Shown here: piece by piece, positions 2,526 through 20,439 of the stretch
How the letters are laid out: each line of letters begins with the position of its first letter
Numbering within the stretch: position 1 is the first letter of the stretch
From: Saccoglossus kowalevskii
Taxonomy: Eukaryota; Hemichordata; Enteropneusta; Harrimaniidae
DNA length: 21,209 nt
Assembly: GCF_000003605.2 (NCBI RefSeq)
Contig: NW_003113963.1
Coordinates: 128,038-149,246, forward strand
Direction: 5' to 3'
Position numbers and translations under genes: made by a program
Notes under the pieces: model-generated
What the model saw: only the letters and a program-made list of their open reading frames with translations
Databases searched by the model: none
Told to the model about the DNA's origin: nothing

Positions 2526-3064
2526 ATGGCAGCACCATCGCGGCGCAAGTCTCTCTGCTCGTCACTGGTCCAGCAAAGGGAAGAAATTGCACCGCTTTTA
2601 AAAACTGAATTACGGGAAGGTGAGTCGTGGTAAGTAAGATAGTCTAACTACGGACACTTTCTTGGTCGATGCGTATAAACCAGTACTGAATTTGTTATAG
2701 AACGTTGGGTAACCCATTTATAGCTGACTCTTATTTTTCTAATGTCTTTGTTTAAACTGGGGCATATCGTCTATATATTTTGAATTATTCTAGAATTCGA
2801 TTTCAATTTAAAAAAATTAAATTAATTCACTGTTTCATACCGATATAAGTGAAATAGTCATAACGATAACGGTGACCCGGTTACCATGCATGATTTCAGT
2901 GTATGCTCATTTCGTTGGGGGGGGGGCATCCATGTCAGTCAATTTCTGTAAAGTATGTGTTGTAACACGCGAGTACTTAAACATTGGGTACACGTAATAA
3001 CATTACGTAGCATTGATTTGATTTGATTTGATTTGATTTGATTTGATTTGATTTGATCAAATCA

Positions 3065-3111
<47 letters not shown>

Positions 3112-6100
3112 TCCATATTCATATATCTTTACAGGTATTTAATTTCAACTAAATGGTTATCGGCATGGAAGAAATATGTTGGTTTTGACGACCATGGTAG
3201 AACTGGGTTTGGTGGATATCCCGGATGTATTGATAATTCACCAATACTACGAGGTAATATATGCACACGTGGAATATTGGGAAACAGAGACGCCGCCAAC
3301 GGCTACAGCGCCTCGCATACTTTTTCTTAATGGGCTACTTAAACAATGACGTGTCTCACTACCTTTTAACGGGCCGGCTATCTAAACATTGGTAGACATT
3401 TACAATGTGTGTGCATGTTTCCCCTTTTACCGCTCCCTTGACACTTAAAACAAGAATGTGGTAATCCGGGGAAAGAGTACACACGCCACTGTGGGCGCAG
3501 TCAACCGTGCTGCTTCCAGCAACAAGCTCAACCCACGAATACTGATCTCGATTTAAATGGTTGATATGAAATTACATAGATACATTAAATATATTGCAAT
3601 GCGCCATTCATATAGACAATAACATACGAATAAAAACACACAAATGTGGAAATGATGAAAATAGTTGCAGGCCACCCTAACTTACTTATTTTTCTATTTC
3701 AATAACAGAAGATGGAAAACTGAAAAAGAATATTGTTGAGGAACTGGACTTCGTGGCTGTTCCCAGTGCAGCATGGGATAGATTGAGCGCTTGGTATGGG
3801 GTAACAGTCAATCAGCAGCCACTGGAAAGAAAAATTATAAAACAAGGGGTCTTCTCAAAAACGTTCAAAGTCGAACTATATCTAATGGATTTTTATCTGG
3901 GCTTACTATCCCAGCCTGGAAAAGGAATGAAAGATGAGTTCAGTAGAACTGATAAAATAGGTAAGTGAATTGTGTTTCTTTTTTATTTCGCCAAACCATA
4001 GTCACTCTACTAGTAGATTGACTGTGGCCAAACCAATGTAAAAGCTACCCATGGATGTGGTTAAAGCACGCCGTGGTTAAAGGTGATTTTTGTGAGTGTT
4101 TATAAATGCAAATTGTTTTGATACTTCCATAACTACCTGGTCAATATAATTTGTGTTACACGTTATTTTTATTGTTATTGAACCGTGAAAAACTAAACAG
4201 ATACAACAATTCCAAAACTTGTTATTGTCTAAAAAAGTAGTACTGCATACTAGTAGATAAAGTGGGGGAGTCGTCACCTGCGCATGTGTCAGATGGCCAT
4301 AGCGTGTCATTGTTTACAAACAAGCATCTACCCGTGAGCCTTTGCATTTTTAGTGTGTGTCGCTTGAGACTCAATTCCCGCGCTAGTCTGGTTCCCTGCC
4401 CCATTTCAACGCTGAGGGCGGTGAAAACTTGGGCAGGGAACCAGACTATTCCCGCGCGTGCGCAGGTGACGACCCTCCCGCTTTAATTTATGTTACAAAT
4501 ATACACAAACAATATACTGGTAATATATTTTCTATTCTGCGCTATATGAATAAACAATATGAAATGAGTTGACATTGAAAAGATTTTACATGAAAAGAAT
4601 ATATTGTATGGCAGTTTTTGTGGTCGATTTATATATTTCGAGAGTACCCTTACTAGTAACACTTTCAGAAAACATGTAATACTTGTAATAAATTGAATAG
4701 GCTGGGGAACACTAATGTGTTGACACTCTGCGTATTATTCATGAACTTCAGTGTTTCTGTTCCCATATTAGGGTACATACACTGGAAAGTGAGAAAAATG
4801 TACAAGATCGATTCAAACAAGGAGACGCGATTATGGAATAAGTTCATGTCCAACACCTATGAACAACTACGAGACCAAGACGCCACACTTCACGAAGCGA
4901 GTCTGTATCAAGGCCAGGTAAAATATACCGTGCAATGTAACTGAATGTAATCCTCTCTGAATCATCGCGCACGTTTCATACAGCTCAATTGGTTTTTATT
5001 CATTCACTGGTAATTTGGTTTATCCCCTAGGTCATTTTAATCGAAGAACGTACTCCCAGTGGCGGTTGGACAAGGTAAGAGTCGCTCGGGGAAAGTGTAA
5101 TCACGGTAACAAATCTTTTTTTAGTAACCGTGGTGTAATATAATATAACGAGGGCGCCCTTACAATGTAGGAGACGTGTGCAAATTTGGAACACAGAAAG
5201 CAAGCGTAATGTGTCTCAGTGTGAAAATAGTGATGCAACACGAAATTTGATTTGCTTGATTTTGTTTAATATTGTCTTGATGCTCTTTTTGGGATAGTTA
5301 TATTATATTGGAACTTAAACACTGCAATTGATTAAATTTCGGAAATTGTATATGTCTCATATTTTTAAATAATCATTTCACAGAAAGGAAAAATCTGGAG
5401 GATACACAGAAAGTTGTCTACTAAAGTACAAAAGGGATGAAACTGTACATACTGGTAAACATTTGTTTCTTTTACGTTGTGTTTTCACTCACGCTCGTTG
5501 CTTGTGTCATAAAGTAGTAACGAGGTATGTTTGCGACTAGACTCGGTTCGAGCTCCCCGGGCGAACCGCTCGAGACACTGTGTATAATAACTATATATAT
5601 ATATATATAAGCGAGGGTCAGAGAATGGAAATCTTGCCTAGTTCACGTCAAATGGCCGACGGAGACCCATTCACTTCAGAACAATCAGATATTTAAAAAT
5701 AAATAAACAGTCTTTTCATCAGAATAAATTGTACAGTATCATTTTTTGTTACAGATAAATTGGCCAATGTGGTGGACGGCCTACAAGGGGATTTCACGAC
5801 GTTTCTACAGGTTAAGCAATCTCAGTACCAAAAAGAAGAAGACATGCTGACGGCAAACTTCCAACGATTCGTAGACCAGGCCAAGCTACGGTTTGAAGAA
5901 GAGGAACGGTCTCTGGCGGAGCGCGATGAAGAGCTGAGGGATCGAGACAAGACGCTTAGAGGGCTGGAGTCCGACTTCAGAAAGAAATCGGACAATCTTG
6001 AGTGCGAGTGGAAGAAACTGAATGACGATAAAGCAGAATTCGCCCAGAAAGTCAAGGAGAAGGACGAGCAGTACCGAAAAGAGAGGCGGGAGTTCCGAGA

Positions 6101-6533
6101 GGAGTGCCGGAAACGTGAGAAAGAGCTGACGGCGAGGAAGGATGTAGTTGATAAAATGGCAGAGGAGCTGGACATCGAGAAGAAGAATATGGAAGAAATT
6201 AACAGAATACAGAAGAGCAGGATCACACTAGACGTAGGGGGCAGCCTTTTCAAGACGTCGATAACAACTCTTCTAAAGGACTCCGAGTCGATGCTGGCTG
6301 TTATGTTTAGCGGACGTCACCCATTGAAAACAGAGGACGATGGGAGTTACTTCATTGACAGAGACGGCACCCATTTTAGGCTTATTCTGAATTATCTGCG
6401 TGAAGGAGAGGTCAAGGAGGGCACACTGCCAGAGGACGTACAGACATTGAAAGAAATCAAAAATGAAGCGGAGTACTACCAACTGAATGCACTAATGAAA
6501 ACAGTTGAAGACATGATAACACAGTTACCCTGA
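2526..6533 (+). CDS. DUSP-UBL / coiled-coil / KCTD-type BTB fusion protein, 7 exons, 504 aa
   Basis: Exons read as 2526-2629, 3135-3253, 3709-3960, 4772-4917, 5031-5074, 5384-5454 and 5755-6533. All junctions are GT..AG and the frame is kept throughout (1515 nt with stop TGA 6531-6533). The ATG has A at -3 and G at +4. Residues about 20-125 form a DUSP domain (WYLISTKW, WKKYVGFD, YPGCIDNS, ELDFVAVP, WYGV). Residues about 135-222 form the linked ubiquitin-like domain (KETRLWNKFMSNTYEQL, LYQGQVILIEE). Both resemble USP4/USP11/USP15. Residues about 256-398 are an extremely charged E/K/R coiled coil. Residues 401-500 are a KCTD/T1-type BTB domain (RITLDVGG, DGSYFIDRDGTHFRLILNYL, EAEYYQL). The USP catalytic domain, with its Cys and His boxes, is absent. 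KCTD-type BTB domains often bind cullin-3, so a substrate-adaptor or USP-interacting role is plausible, but that is inference. The only weak point is whether transcripts really join exons 6 and 7. Confidence 0.83.
3013..3112. repeat. ATTTG pentamer array that flips into an AATC tetramer array
   Basis: In intron 1 of the fusion gene, about eight ATTTG units run into a perfect 22-bp palindrome centred on GATC at 3055-3058. After it come two AAATC units and then a run of AATC tetramers ending near 3112. The two halves are near reverse complements, so the array can fold into a cruciform. Confidence 0.9.
4258..4485. mobile_element. MITE with ~30-bp imperfect terminal inverted repeats
   Basis: The left end (TAAAGTGGGGGAGTCGTCAC, continuing to about 4289) is matched on the opposite strand by the right end (about 4454-4485). 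Both contain GTCGTCACCTGCGCA, with a few transitions between the arms. The ends fall on TA, compatible with a TA target duplication of the Tc1/mariner type. The 228-bp element has no coding capacity. It lies in intron 3 of the DUSP-KCTD gene and contains a second, smaller inserted element at 4384-4448. Confidence 0.8.
4384..4448. mobile_element. 65-bp nested miniature element with perfect 18-bp TIRs and 9-bp target duplication
   Basis: The arms tagtctggttccctgccc (4384-4401) and gggcagggaaccagacta (4431-4448) are perfect reverse complements around a 29-bp loop. They are flanked on both sides by the same 9 bases, ttcccgcgc (4375-4383 and 4449-4457). A 9-bp duplication fits a Mutator-like or similar transposase. 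It sits inside the larger MITE, so it arrived later. Confidence 0.75.
5592..5609. repeat. TA dinucleotide microsatellite
   Basis: A short run of alternating T and A lies in the last intron of the DUSP-KCTD gene. Confidence 0.9.
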
Positions 6534-8204: not shown

Positions 8205-9048
8205 CTGAGATAGCTCCGCTGTTAGCAATGCAAATTTAAATTAAAGAACAGGAAATATCATCAGAAAATGAACAATATGTATAGTATCAAAGCAATGGGA
8301 CTTGCTGTTTTCAACAAGAATTCAAAAATATAACTTTTCACCAAAAATGACAAAAATAATCATCAAAATTAGATAATTGAAGATATTACCACGGAATTAA
8401 CAAATCTGAAAGAGATCCACATGTAGTACCTATATATATGTAATATAAAAACAATGGGACTTGCGGTTTTCAACAAGAAGTCGAAAATATCACTTTTTAC
8501 CAAACATGACAAAAATATTCACCAAAATTAGAGAATTAAAAATATCATTACAAAATGAACAAATCTGAGAGAGGTCCACATGTAGTACCTATATATGTAA
8601 TATCAAAGCAATTGGACTTGCGGTTTTTAACAAGAAGTCGAACATATCACTTTTCACCAAAAATGACAAAAATATTCACCAAAATTAGAGAATTAAAGAT
8701 ATCATTACAAAATGAACAAATCTGAGAGAGATCCACATGTAGTACCTATATATGTAATATCAAAGCAATTGGACTTGCGGTTTTTAACAAGAAGTTGAAA
8801 ATATCACTTTTTACCAAAAATGACAAAAATATTCACCAAAATTAGAGAATTGAAGATATCATCATGAAAATAATGAACAAATCTGAGAGAGGTCTAGCCA
8901 AGGAACATACACACTAAGTATCAAAGCATTCAGGCTTGTAGTTTTCAAGAAGAAGTAAAAAATATAAAACATTGACACGGACGACGACGACGGACAATCA
9001 CTCATATGATAAGCTCCGCTCGACAAAGTCGACAGCGGAGCTAAAACA
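8205..9048. mobile_element. Pearl/HINE-like non-autonomous Helentron element with ~158-bp tandem core repeats
   Basis: The left part carries agctccgctgttagc (8212-8226). It is followed by five copies of a 157-161-bp unit, best tracked by the ggacttg-type motif at 8298, 8457, 8614, 8771 and about 8932. After these come an ACG-rich microsatellite (8976-8994) and a terminal hairpin (9012-9042) whose arms are agctccgct and agcggagct, with an inner cgac/gtcg pair. The same agctccgct thus appears at both ends. Core repeats, an ACGG/ACG microsatellite and a 3' subterminal hairpin match the known architecture of bivalve pearl elements and Helentron-associated elements. There is no coding sequence. 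Exact outer boundaries are uncertain by several bases. Confidence 0.7.
8240..8960. repeat. Five tandem copies of a ~158-bp unit
   Basis: The unit starts about aatgaacaaatctgagagag and includes cacatgtagtacctatatat, a ggacttgcggtttt block and ccaaaaatgacaaaaatatt. The middle copies (about 8457-8860) are the most alike. The first and last copies are more diverged, the usual pattern of an array that homogenises from its centre. Confidence 0.88.
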
Positions 9049-10370: not shown

Positions 10371-10719
10371 TATTCTCGGGGGGGGGGGGCGGACATCCGG
10401 GCATTTTCTACCGCCTGGCAACCCTCGCAGTGAAAACAAAGACCAAAAACTCGCAGAAAACGGTACTTTGCGATGGTTGTTGAGAGTCCCCTGAACAGTG
10501 TAACAAGATTAGCCCTACCTACGTGTGTAACATATATGACTTTGGTTGTTCAGGATTACTTCAAAGTCGAGTTTGTGTTCAAGTTGTTTTCTCGAGTTTT
10601 CATCGGCTCGACCGGCGTTCCACAGCAGCGCGCACACAGAGCCCATAGAAATACGTGGTACAGTGGTGCGCGTCTTAGCAACGTAGAACGTCCGTGACAT
10701 AGCTCCGCCCCCGAGGATA
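10371..10719. mobile_element. MITE copy 1, TATCCTCGGGGGCGGA-type inverted ends
   Basis: It begins TATTCTCGGGG, continues as a 12-G tract (10378-10389) and gcggacat, and ends gctccgcccccgaggata, the reverse complement of TATCCTCGGGGGCGGAGC. A second copy lies at 17059-17361. Relative to that copy it has about 30 extra bases after gagagtcc, 6 and 2 extra bases further on, and 8 more Gs in the tract; the rest is nearly identical. The reading frames inside it on both strands are chance. Confidence 0.8.
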
Positions 10720-11259
10720 GCTTAATCTTTTTTATTCAACAAACTAGAACTAACGCTCATGTCACAATAACATTTTTGGATTGATCAATTTTAACTCATA
10801 AACCCTTTTTGATTTATAGAAATGTATATTTATAAAACGTTTATAACGACCACGGCTTTATGCTCTTTACTGTATATATTCTATATAAAAAAAATAACAC
10901 AAGCTCCCAAACAAACAAATAAAAAGCTTTACTTGTCAAATGCTGGGCGTTGTTTTATTAGAGGCCTGCACAACTTGTTGCGACATGTTTCTCGCTTTTG
11001 CTTCAATCAAAATAAAAACATAAATATAGCTTGGACTGGGTCGGACCTACCTATTTGAAATAAACATTGCCCAATTAGTCTTTTTATGTTGCCTACACAA
11101 TCTCTAGTAGTCTCTTCTTAGCGGTAATCGTCTAGAAGACGGAATTCTTTGTCCCTAATGCTCACGTAATAGACCGTCTCCATTGCTGAGTCCATTGACG
11201 CAGTTAACCGCTCTAGCAGTACTCCGAAGTGCAAGTGTTCAACACACCTGGCGTATAGT
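10720..11259. other. AT-rich stretch upstream of the opsin gene
   Basis: I see no gene. The part nearest 11260 is expected to hold the opsin promoter and 5' UTR, but no core promoter motif stands out. Confidence 0.4.
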
Positions 11260-14200
11260 ATGGTGACTACCGACAGCTTAGCAAACAGCACCGACGAACC
11301 TGTACCCAGTATTCTGACGTTACAACAGCACTACGCCGCAAGCGTCACACTGCTTGCCTTGGGTACGTATAAACATGGCCTATATGGCCACGCCCATGTA
11401 CCGTGCATGCACGTGAAATGACCACAGTTTCCATCACGGTTACTAAAATAGTAACCGTGTTTCCATGTTGTAAACCACACTACATGTGTCGATAATGTTT
11501 TCTATATTCATTGAATTTCGAACATCAAGCACGGTTTACTAACACCTCACAAGTATGGCCACGATGTTTACATGTACGGTTTACATTGTCATTCATCTTC
11601 GCAAGCCAAGGTTCCCTCCCTTAATTTGAATCGGACAACGATGTCATTGTGTTAGGGGAGACAGATCCGTGATCTATTTTAGGCACAATTATGTAACACG
11701 TACGTTTTATTTTCTGACGGATGCGAATACCTTTGTCACGTGACATTGCTTACGCCATCTACGATAACATAATTTACACAGGCTGATCGGCGGAGGTACA
11801 CGTGCACAAATCTATCCCGTGATATATGTGTTTGCATATCACCCATGCAAGCACCCCCTCATGGGTTCAACCCTGACGATCAAGGATATGTTGTTATAAC
11901 GACCAGGCTATCCATAACTTGAACATTTTATGATTCATGATTAAGGTAGAATGCTACACAAAAGTTAAAATATTGTCATTTCTCTATTTTTACATATTTG
12001 ATCTATCATGTTACAAGGGTTGAGAAAATAAAATAAAAATATGGGGCCACCTTTCTCAGTTCAGAGAAAGGCCATAATTACAATACAATGAAAATGGCAT
12101 GTTTTGTCTATTTTAGAGCATTTACTATTGTTTCCTGTGGCGAGAATACATTTCAGTATCTCGGAATTTTGCCTGGTGACATGTAGTGAAAAAAACACAT
12201 ATACACTTTTTTACAGTGTACTTTTCGATGTCTGAATGTATTAAAATATTGACAATATTTTTAGTGGGTTTTAAGGAGGAATTGTGTTTTCATTGTGGTC
12301 TAATGGAAACCGCTGCTAAAATGCCATTTTATGTTTATTATTTTACTGTTTTTCGTACTAAAGCGAGTAATTGTAGACAGATTTTGACACGAAATATTCT
12401 CACTTTTATATGCGCTAAAATCTGCACACAAGTGAAAACTCGCGTATAACACTCTACTTGAATAATAAGATATTTTTTTGAGAATATATTATATAACCCC
12501 AGGGACTACCAGCCTGGTCTTTAAATGGGGATCATTAGCATAATAATAATATTACAATATGTTCATTTCCTCAGCTGTAATAGGGACTGTGCTCAGCTCT
12601 GTGAATTTCCGTATGCTGTTGTCTAATCCGGATTACTGCAGTAAAGCTGGGAATTTTTTTTTGTCACTAGCAGTCACTGACTTGTGTGAGTTTTCCTTTT
12701 TGAATTTCGAAATTTCGCGTATTTGCGTAACCATAGAAACCGGGAATCGTAAATCAACATTGCTTTGTGAATTCCTCCTGGTTTTATGAATCTTGATCAA
12801 TTCCCTTTCTGATTTGTCTATTAATGTGTACATAGGTGTGTGTATATTCGAAACGCCCTTCTCCGCCTTCAGTCACCATGCTGGATTTTGGATATTCGGA
12901 GACACAGCGTGCCAACTGTATGCGTTTTTCGGTATATTCTTTGGACTTGTCAACATCTTCATGGTAACCTTCATCAGTTTGGACCGTTACTGGGCAACGT
13001 GTTCTCCCGTAGAAGGTGAGTTTATAATATTAAAGTGACGTCAATCACTGAATCACCTTTATTCTGAAACATGGAATAGCTCATTTCTGGAGCAGTGATA
13101 AATACGATAAGATACGAACATACAACCGACTATTCGGCGAAATTCCCGATTTTATCGCCCCTTCTCCAGTACCTTTCCAATAAGTGGCGCCCTCTGGCGA
13201 CACGGTAGTGTTATTCAAAAATCGACCGTTATTTGAAAAAACAATCATGCCAGCTATATCATGCTACACTCTTCTTTGCTGCACCAATCACAGTTATTGC
13301 TTCGAGCGCCATTGCTCCCCTTCAACGTAATTTTGACGTCATAGATTCGCTTCGTCGCTAGAGGGCACGTATCATCAATTGCTATATTCTATTACAGTGA
13401 GCATCAGTACTAATTATGTAAAATATATTAAAATTAAAATAATTTATGTTTTCGTTCACTGGCGTTCATAATCCATTAATGGCTTTCCTACTATTTCAGT
13501 GGAATTGAAATCCAAGTACTACACGCGGATGACAGCGCTTGGATGGATGGTGGCGCTGTTCTGGGCGGCCGCGCCTGTATTTGGCTGGTCACGGTATGCC
13601 ATGGAACCTTCCATGGCCTCATGTAGTATTGATTATATGACAAACGACTTTAGTTACGTCACGTACATTACTTGCCTAACTTTGACGTGTTACGTGGTTC
13701 CCATCGTTGTCATGGTATACTGCTATGTTAAAGCGTCCAAGAACATCAAATATACTGGAAAAGTGACTGAGTGGGCACACGAAAATAACGCCACCAAGGT
13801 AAGCTGAGACAGGTGCTGCACTACGTCACATTCGTCGCATCGCTTCGCGTTCGATATGGGTCTCATGCGATGTTCACAACGCGTGTTAAATATATTGTTT
13901 CCATGGAATTCGAACGCGATGTGCGACTGCCGCTTTTAAAACGTGTTTAGATATATTTAAAACGCCAACATGTACATGGAAATTGATTGAAGTGGCCAAC
14001 TTCGTTTACCACGACCTCTCCACGAGCAAAAAATAACATTCGCTGGCATTATCTCACAATCTCACGCTGGCACTATTTCGGCTGTCCTTAAAAGATTAAA
14101 GATCGACACTGCCCCATTATCCACTGGACCACACGTTGTTGATTGCAGCGTTCGCACGTTGCGACCGGTGAATAACACTCTAATGAATGTTTTCTTCCAG

Positions 14201-14428
14201 ATATCGAGATTGTGCGTGTTGCAACTTGTATTTTGTTGGAGTCTATATGGCTTCAATTGCATGTGGACAGTAGTTGCCGATGATGTTGAAACGTTGCCGA
14301 AGATGCTGACAGTACTGGCTCCCATTCTAGCCAAGACCACACCGATCCTCAATTCTGGACTGTACTTCCTGCACAACAAAAAGTTTCGTGGTGCTGCTGT
14401 TGATATGTTCAAGGCCAAGGAGGAATAA
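11260..14428 (+). CDS. RRH-like: Peropsin (RRH)-group opsin, 5 exons, 306 aa
   Basis: Exons read as 11260-11362, 12575-12685, 12836-13015, 13500-13798 and 14201-14428 (stop TAA 14426-14428). All are GT..AG and in frame. The start ATG has A at -3 and G at +4. The protein is a seven-helix retinal receptor. Visible hallmarks are an N-glycosylation site NST at residues 9-11, the helix-3 disulfide Cys97 paired with Cys173, an intact DRY at 121-123, Glu167 six residues before Cys173 (the rhodopsin Glu181 equivalent), and the retinal-binding lysine K276 in APILAKTTPILN. The usual helix-3 counterion position is Tyr100, as in most non-vertebrate-visual opsins. The loop after helix 5 and the C-terminus (NKKFRGAAVDMFK) resemble human RRH. 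Oddities are CWSLY in place of CWxP in helix 6 and NSGLY in place of NPxxY in helix 7. An RGR- or neuropsin-related opsin is the main alternative. Exon 1 is the least certain exon. Confidence 0.85.
11435..11459. repeat. Perfect hairpin with 11-bp arms
   Basis: cacggttacta and tagtaaccgtg surround a 3-base loop in intron 1 of the opsin. A near copy with a longer loop and one mismatch (cacggtaac ... gtaaccgtg) lies at 5102-5132 in an intron of the DUSP-KCTD gene, so this is probably a dispersed palindromic remnant. Confidence 0.7.
13187..13368. mobile_element. Candidate MITE in opsin intron 3
   Basis: gcgccctctggcgac (13187-13201) and gtcgctagagggcac (13354-13368) are imperfect inverted repeats (13 of 15 match) spaced by about 150 bp. 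GCGCCCTCT-type ends are common on short DNA transposons. No clear target duplication was found, so the exact family is open. Confidence 0.5.
13833..13926. repeat. Imperfect inverted repeat in opsin intron 4
   Basis: cgtcgcatcgcttcgcgttc on the left is mirrored by gaacgcgatgtgcgac on the right, with small gaps. The arms enclose about 50 bp. It could be the core of a fold-back element. Confidence 0.5.
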
Positions 14429-17058: not shown

Positions 17059-17361
17059 TATCCTCGGGGCGGACATCTGGGCATTTTCTAACGCCTGGTA
17101 ACCCTCGCGGTGAAAAGAAAGACCAAAAACTCGCAGAAAACGGTACTTTGCGATGGTTGATGAGAGTCCTACGTGTGTAACATATATGAATTTGGTTGTT
17201 CAGGATTACTTCATAGTTGAGTTTGTGTTGTTTTCTCGAGTTTTCACCGGCTCCACCGGCGTTCCACAGCAGCGCGCACAAAGCCCATAGAAATACGTGG
17301 TACAGTGGTGCGCGTCTTAGCAACGTAGAACGTCCGTGACGAAGCTCCGCCCCCGAGGATA
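17059..17361. mobile_element. MITE copy 2, TATCCTCGGGG-type inverted ends
   Basis: The ends are TATCCTCGGGGCGGACATC on the left and gctccgcccccgaggata on the right, the latter the reverse complement of TATCCTCGGGGGCGGAGC. The body matches the copy at 10371-10719 apart from the listed indels. The terminal TA could be a TA target duplication. Confidence 0.82.
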
Positions 17362-19518: not shown

Positions 19519-20439
19519 TTAACCCTGCTTTTGAACAATAATCGCATCAGAACTGTTGTTGAACATCTTTCTTCCATCCAAGGTTTCACAGCACTGCTCA
19601 CTTTTTAATAATTGAATTAAATCATCTCGAATATTCTTTGGGACCGTCTGCCGAAAATTGCATATATGAGTTAAAAAGTCTAGGATGCGATCCCCAACAT
19701 CCGAATTATCAACGAATACTTCTGAAATGTCCACTCGTGATTCATCACGGATACTCATAAAAGGAATGTTCTTCATTCTTAGTTCTTTTTTGACATCAGC
19801 CGAAGTGATGAAATTCATCCGATCATCCTGAAGAATGGATCTATGCCGCTTCCAGAGATTGTGATAGCCACTTCCATCGGCAGTAACTATGATCAATAAT
19901 ATTCCACCCAACGCAAGAATATTGTACATCTCTTGAATTGCGCCATCATACGGCATGTAATAAATGGCTTCAATGATGTGAATGAAGTTAAAACTGTCTC
20001 TGGGGCTGACTTTCATGCATTCGATGAATTCATCAAAGGTTTTCATGTGCCAATCAAATGCTGTCTTTAATAGGTGTGTGTCTCCTTCAACCAAATTACG
20101 AAATTTCTCTATTTCTTGTAGAGATGGCTCAACCACAGAATATTTAATATTGGAAAACATACCCTGAAGTTGTTGCAGCATCATTCGATCAACTTCACCA
20201 GAACCACCCCCAATGCTGAGGACACTACAAACACTGTGACATTCCCTCTTCTCACATCCATTCTTCTTCTCTTCTTCGGCTAACAAAATGATATTTTTTA
20301 TGATACCGGGGAAGACGTGTTGACACCACCGAGGCATTCGTTCTGTGAAATATTTCGCAAGTGGCAGGAAAGAATGTCTACATTTACTGTAATGGTCCTT
20401 ATCATTAAACAGACTTTGTACACTTAACATGTTGGTCAT
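19519..20439 (-). CDS. HNMT: Histamine N-methyltransferase-like enzyme, single exon, 306 aa
   Basis: The protein matches the vertebrate HNMT fold along its whole length (human is 292 residues). Class I SAM-dependent methyltransferase motifs are clear: VLSIGGGSGEVD (73-84) binds the SAM methionine/ribose end, and VVEPS (102-106) is the acidic ribose-binding strand. FIHIIEAIYYM (152-162) and LDFLTHICNF (253-262) also align, as does the C-terminal FNN (293-295). HNMT methylates the imidazole nitrogen of histamine in the cytosol. Of the known histamine contacts, the human Asn283 equivalent is kept (Asn295). The human Gln143 position appears to be Glu157, and the human Glu28 position is not clearly matched. 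Substrate may thus differ from histamine. There is no intron across the full frame, unlike multi-exon vertebrate HNMT, which suggests either retroposition or intron loss. The first ATG has a weak context; Met4 (aacATG) is an alternative start. Confidence 0.85.
   Translation of the reverse strand: MTNMLSVQSLFNDKDHYSKCRHSFLPLAKYFTERMPRWCQHVFPGIIKNIILLAEEEKKNGCEKRECHSVCSVLSIGGGSGEVDRMMLQQLQGMFSNIKYSVVEPSLQEIEKFRNLVEGDTHLLKTAFDWHMKTFDEFIECMKVSPRDSFNFIHIIEAIYYMPYDGAIQEMYNILALGGILLIIVTADGSGYHNLWKRHRSILQDDRMNFITSADVKKELRMKNIPFMSIRDESRVDISEVFVDNSDVGDRILDFLTHICNFRQTVPKNIRDDLIQLLKSEQCCETLDGRKMFNNSSDAIIVQKQG

Follow-up and report, generated by a model that had tools for sequence, protein, structure and literature searches.

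In the 21,209-nucleotide stretch of Saccoglossus kowalevskii DNA analysed here (the window), we identified a gene whose predicted product joins a DUSP and ubiquitin-like (UBL) tandem of the USP4/15 deubiquitinase type to a long charged helix and a C-terminal KCTD-type BTB domain. Analysis at the sequence level confirmed this gene model as a sound observation. The architecture appears to be undescribed within the open-licence literature searched, in whose titles and abstract openings neither a DUSP-UBL/KCTD-BTB nor a RING/B-box-DUSP fusion is mentioned, and to that extent the original prediction that it has no described precedent is borne out. Action as a cullin-3 adaptor is considered the most likely mechanism, followed by regulation of a full-length USP, and we put at about even the chance that one gene combines USP4/15-derived heads, a helix and a KCTD-BTB in a cullin-3 adaptor that opposes USP4/15.

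The gene is composed of seven exons, which lie in the window as follows:

2526..2629, plus strand: exon 1, with the start codon and the N-terminal helix region of the DUSP
3135..3253, plus strand: exon 2, part of the DUSP; its ends match those of the USP4/15 paralog on contig C3976
3709..3960, plus strand: exon 3, the remainder of the DUSP, the DUSP-UBL linker and the beginning of the UBL
4772..4917, plus strand: exon 4, the UBL core; 146 bases, equal in length to its C3976 counterpart
5031..5074, plus strand: exon 5, the end of the UBL; its 3' end differs from C3976, where the exon continues
5384..5454, plus strand: exon 6, a linker without a known domain
5755..6533, plus strand: exon 7, the long charged helix, the KCTD-type BTB and the stop codon

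Spliced in frame at GT-AG sites throughout, these exons give 1,515 bases that encode a predicted protein of 504 residues followed by a stop, so that the stop-free joining of seven exons originally proposed holds, with phase agreement at all six junctions. By a rough splice-site consensus with weights of our own setting, all six donors fall at or above the 96th percentile among all GT of the window, and all six acceptors at or above the 94th percentile among all AG. Exon 6 is required because the phase of exon 5 forbids its direct in-frame joining to exon 7, and its codon use is coding-like (1.2% of 757 overlapping null windows score equally high).

Profile matches and the predicted helix map onto the genomic sequence at these positions:

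2619..3839, plus strand: genomic span of the DUSP match (residues 32-118), with introns 1 and 2 lying within it
3927..5384, plus strand: genomic span of the Ubiquitin_3 match (residues 148-222), with introns 3 to 5 lying within it
5757..6212, plus strand: predicted long helix (exon 7 residues 2-153; coordinates derived from the residue range)
6222..6497, plus strand: BTB_2 match (residues 402-493)

The USP4/11/15-like N-terminal half and the KCTD/T1-type BTB of the original prediction were both recovered by profile search, with DUSP (E 2e-21, 76.7 bits against a gathering score of 29.3), Ubiquitin_3, the ubiquitin-like domain of USP4/15 (E 9e-23, 80.4 bits against 24), and BTB_2 (E 4e-20, 72.3 bits against 21.4) all exceeding the Pfam gathering scores. 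Comparison with solved structures matched residues 13-224 to the DUSP-UBL of human USP15 (E 2.5e-59), USP4 (1.2e-58) and USP11 (8.8e-35). By sequence, the BTB matched KCTD7 first (E 3.5e-20), with KCTD13 and KCTD10 next. The window protein thus shares the DUSP-UBL tandem with USP4, USP15 and USP11, being nearest to USP15 and USP4, but differs from them in that no catalytic domain was found and a C-terminal helix and BTB are carried instead. In many KCTD proteins the BTB lies close to the N-terminus and a C-terminal domain comes after it. That layout is absent here; the window BTB resembles those of KCTD7, KCTD13 and KCTD10 in sequence, predicted fold and cullin-3 contact residues, but it is positioned C-terminally, behind the long helix and with DUSP-UBL ahead, and the protein stops 11 residues past the BTB_2 match. 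Pfam found neither a RING nor a B-box in the window protein.

An AlphaFold2 model of exon 7, for which the alignment input was seven KCTD-like frames of the same genome, has a mean pLDDT of 89.2 and shows a helix spanning residues 2-153 (152 residues), then the BTB; with a pTM of 0.42, the model does not fix how the helix is angled relative to the BTB. The predicted BTB fold is nearest to those of KCTD13 and KCTD10, with TM scores of 0.91-0.94 by target length among the best seven Foldseek matches. For the coiled coil of about 140 residues that had been predicted here, the length is near to that of the modeled helix. Hydrophobic residues recur along this helix with a period that peaks at 3.6 (0.25% of 2,000 shuffles equally strong), and on this basis it may form a coiled coil or else stand as a single-helix stalk. 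A genome search with exon 7 gave nine places, the window itself and eight that match the BTB end only, seven of which (L030-L036) are KCTD-type frames without the helix. Membership of exon 7 in a helix-BTB gene family of this genome was considered and rejected, since the genome matches cover only the BTB end.

The front half could be traced to a USP4/15 gene. Searching the genome with the DUSP returned eight places on four contigs (C3376, C3976, C11 and C761, the last being the window's own), and searching with Ubiquitin_3 returned only two, C3976 and the window. The C3976 locus has two UCH matches by Pfam, and its USP4/15 gene contains the catalytic boxes GLSNLGNTCFMN and GGMGGGHYTA. The C11 DUSP gene looks USP32-type by eye. 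All four comparable introns of the window gene match those of the C3976 USP gene in position and phase (intron 1 falls at W|Y in phase 2 in both), and because these introns are held in common the window front is, as read from the two sequences, a DNA-level, intron-bearing duplicate from a USP4/15 gene. Intron 5 of the window gene has no counterpart in C3976, where the exon continues. The window front is identical to the C3976 paralog at 98 of 209 residues (47%), and the paralog to human USP15 at 161 of 215. Over the 209 codons compared, the window gene and the paralog differ at 42% of first, 29% of second and 62% of third positions, a pattern that points to constraint, and the front has diverged fast and yet remained under this constraint.

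A single gene has to be weighed against two transcription units, in which a DUSP-UBL-only transcript would end in intron 6 and a single-exon helix-BTB gene would start from the ATG at 5844. Intron 6 does contain AATAAA at 5698 and 5723, read-through past exon 6 meets a stop after 28 more codons, and third-position G+C climbs from 0.38 to 0.57 at exon 7. However, a good acceptor with matching phase is present at 5755, the helix is predicted already from exon 7 residue 2, and the 30 codons of exon 7 that precede 5844, its first in-frame ATG, are coding-like in their use (among 508 overlapping stop-free non-coding windows of 30 codons, 0.4% score equally high), which speaks for splicing at 5755 rather than initiation within exon 7; we therefore regard two units as improbable. 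A misassembled join, or a duplicate in decay, would be compatible with the derivation of the sequence from a single assembly and with the fast divergence of the front, but the window contains no N anywhere, so that no marked gap lies at the 5454/5755 junction, the frame is open throughout, every splice site is present and the codon positions show constraint, all of which makes such an origin of the fusion very improbable.

The removal of the protease, also part of the original prediction, agrees with the searches made for it. When 113 residues of the C3976 USP catalytic domain were searched against the genome, six places were hit, distributed over C3976, C11 and C2596, whereas C761 had none; tblastn of 119 frames of the C3976 locus against the window and its flanks returned, at E < 0.01, only the DUSP/UBL exons and stretches resembling shared repeats. 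The tblastn search covered the whole window and, of the 30,000 bases downstream and the 12,000 upstream, 15,437 and 7,346 respectively; only half of the far flank was readable, since 14,563 of those downstream bases are N. Within this coverage, no UCH catalytic domain with Cys and His boxes was found for the window gene. The statement is based on tblastn and the catalytic-domain genome search; Pfam scans of long stop-masked frames were weak, one of them having overlooked a 7tm exon that reaches 3.5e-13 when scanned by itself. Two stretches of the window, 10386-10795 and 17067-17354 (minus strand), resemble sequence outside the exons of the C3976 USP gene; they are probably a dispersed repeat.

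Judged from its residues, cullin-3 binding by the window BTB is plausible. Residues of KCTD7 that contact cullin-3 are listed in PMC10856315, which also describes KCTD13 and KCTD10 as cullin-3 binders. At eight of these contacts, six are kept in the window BTB, as they are in KCTD13 and in KCTD10, while the non-binder KCTD1 keeps two of eight and seven KCTD-like frames of the same genome keep 2, 3, 4, 4, 5, 5 and 5; the six contacts support the original suggestion that the BTB could recruit cullin-3. The minor-interface residue R65 of KCTD7 is a serine in the window BTB, and the other seven contacts comprise six identities and one change, Asp to Glu. PMC10856315 also reports that several KCTDs do not bind cullin-3, including KCTD14, which is grouped with KCTD7, so that resemblance to KCTD7 is insufficient for binding. 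These non-binders lend some weight to a scaffold in which the BTB would not bind cullin-3 and would only oligomerise DUSP-UBL, but the match at the contacts other than R65 argues against it, and we think it quite improbable.

In the cullin-3 adaptor that we prefer, the window BTB would form a ring-like oligomer and bind cullin-3, with the helix acting as a stalk that keeps the DUSP-UBL heads off the BTB ring. The heads would bind USP4/15 partners or the catalytic domain of a full-length USP, and the bound proteins would be delivered to the cullin-3 ligase, so that ubiquitin would be added where USP4/15 takes it off. Partners are known for the USP4 modules, with RIG-I, Rheb and NBS1 bound via the DUSP and BRAP via DUSP-UBL according to PMC7935551. 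The case for SART3, offered as an example in the original prediction, is weakened: USP4 residues 125-130, GLFVKH, are essential to SART3 binding according to PMC8125482, and the equivalent linker is altered to GVFSKT in the window gene, whereas it reads GMFVKH in the C3976 paralog.

The heads might instead work with no ligase, as a multivalent regulator in which oligomeric DUSP-UBL heads would bind the catalytic insert of USP4/15 in trans, either activating it or titrating it. In PMC4243247, USP4 DUSP-Ubl is reported to bind the insert of the catalytic domain and, in trans, to raise the activity of that domain up to about ninefold, though this was seen at 150 uM, and ten activity-lowering mutants of USP4 are reported, with M24, R40, F51, residues 88-92, E134 and Y136 named. 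One other DUSP-UBL gene was found in the genome, that on C3976, and it carries catalytic boxes. With each of residues 88-92 counted, six of the ten activity-linked positions named there are identical in the window protein and four are similar, the positions having been located by an assumed USP4 numbering; the six identities are weak evidence because they are near the overall 47% identity to the paralog. A regulator of this kind would leave the retention of cullin-3 contact residues unexplained, and we consider it an unlikely, if credible, account of the gene.

The window gene is not the only one in this genome in which a USP4/15-type DUSP is found with ligase-type domains. Three long open frames on contig C3376 are TRIM-like:

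L025:666-2255, contig C3376: TRIM-like open frame with a B-box and a terminal DUSP
L025:5746-7323, contig C3376: TRIM-like open frame with a B-box and a terminal DUSP
L024:1864-3732, contig C3376: TRIM-like open frame with a B-box and a terminal DUSP

Besides the B-boxes present in all three, a RING is found in two. The DUSPs of two of these genes have USP4 and USP15 as their best solved relatives, and the third shows 42-46% identity to USP4, USP15 and the C3976 USP; a further genome search with this third DUSP gave no additional locus. The Ubiquitin_3 genome search found no UBL in the TRIM-like genes, and no fork is supported in a DUSP tree of seven rows. Of the five USP4/15-type DUSP genes found, one is joined to a protease and four to ligase-type domains, a count that is a lower bound as the searches were by exon. 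Attachment of a USP4/15-type DUSP to ligase-type domains is thus common to the window gene and the TRIM-like RING/B-box proteins, and suggests that this joining has been recurrent in the genome. The TRIM-like copies are single open frames, whereas the window front bears introns, which suggests that the TRIM and KCTD captures of the DUSP took separate routes.

Since the TRIM-like genes share part of the USP front, the opposite ubiquitin tool may aim at the same targets. We advance tentatively, as something possible rather than probable, that the lineage has built 'mirror' ligases by repeatedly joining a deubiquitinase's docking module to ligase parts (one of the cullin-3 and three of the TRIM type). 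Were this true, the writer and the eraser of ubiquitin would read the same address, and the reuse of deubiquitinase targeting domains to steer ligases would be a natural counterpart of engineered degraders. The fusion makes the poorly defined role of the DUSP testable, in that what the fused heads bind would be what the DUSP is for.

Several other features were observed in the window and the genome. Positions 1-1646 of the window contain about 51 copies of a 30-base repeat that is open on the plus strand in two frames and encodes ten-residue repeats such as NSYPMPSLNS; the bases preceding the window are N, and the repeat may be part of a repeat protein. A tandem repeat of 157 bases occupies 8275-8891 in about four copies. 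Exons of a rhodopsin-family receptor lie on the plus strand at 12790-13038, 13472-13807 and 13991-14428, with 7tm_1 matched in the first two and not in the third, which by eye resembles the last opsin helix with its lysine. On the minus strand, 19519-20439 is a single open frame for a methyltransferase (Methyltransf_23, E 4.6e-8). A search for the GFP family gave no match, which is weak evidence against an amphioxus source, as no control responded either. Elsewhere in the assembly, L041 on contig C4830 is a mitochondrial COX1 with ATA at 10 codons, nine of which fall at places where sea stars have isoleucine, and we read this as a sign of an echinoderm or a hemichordate.
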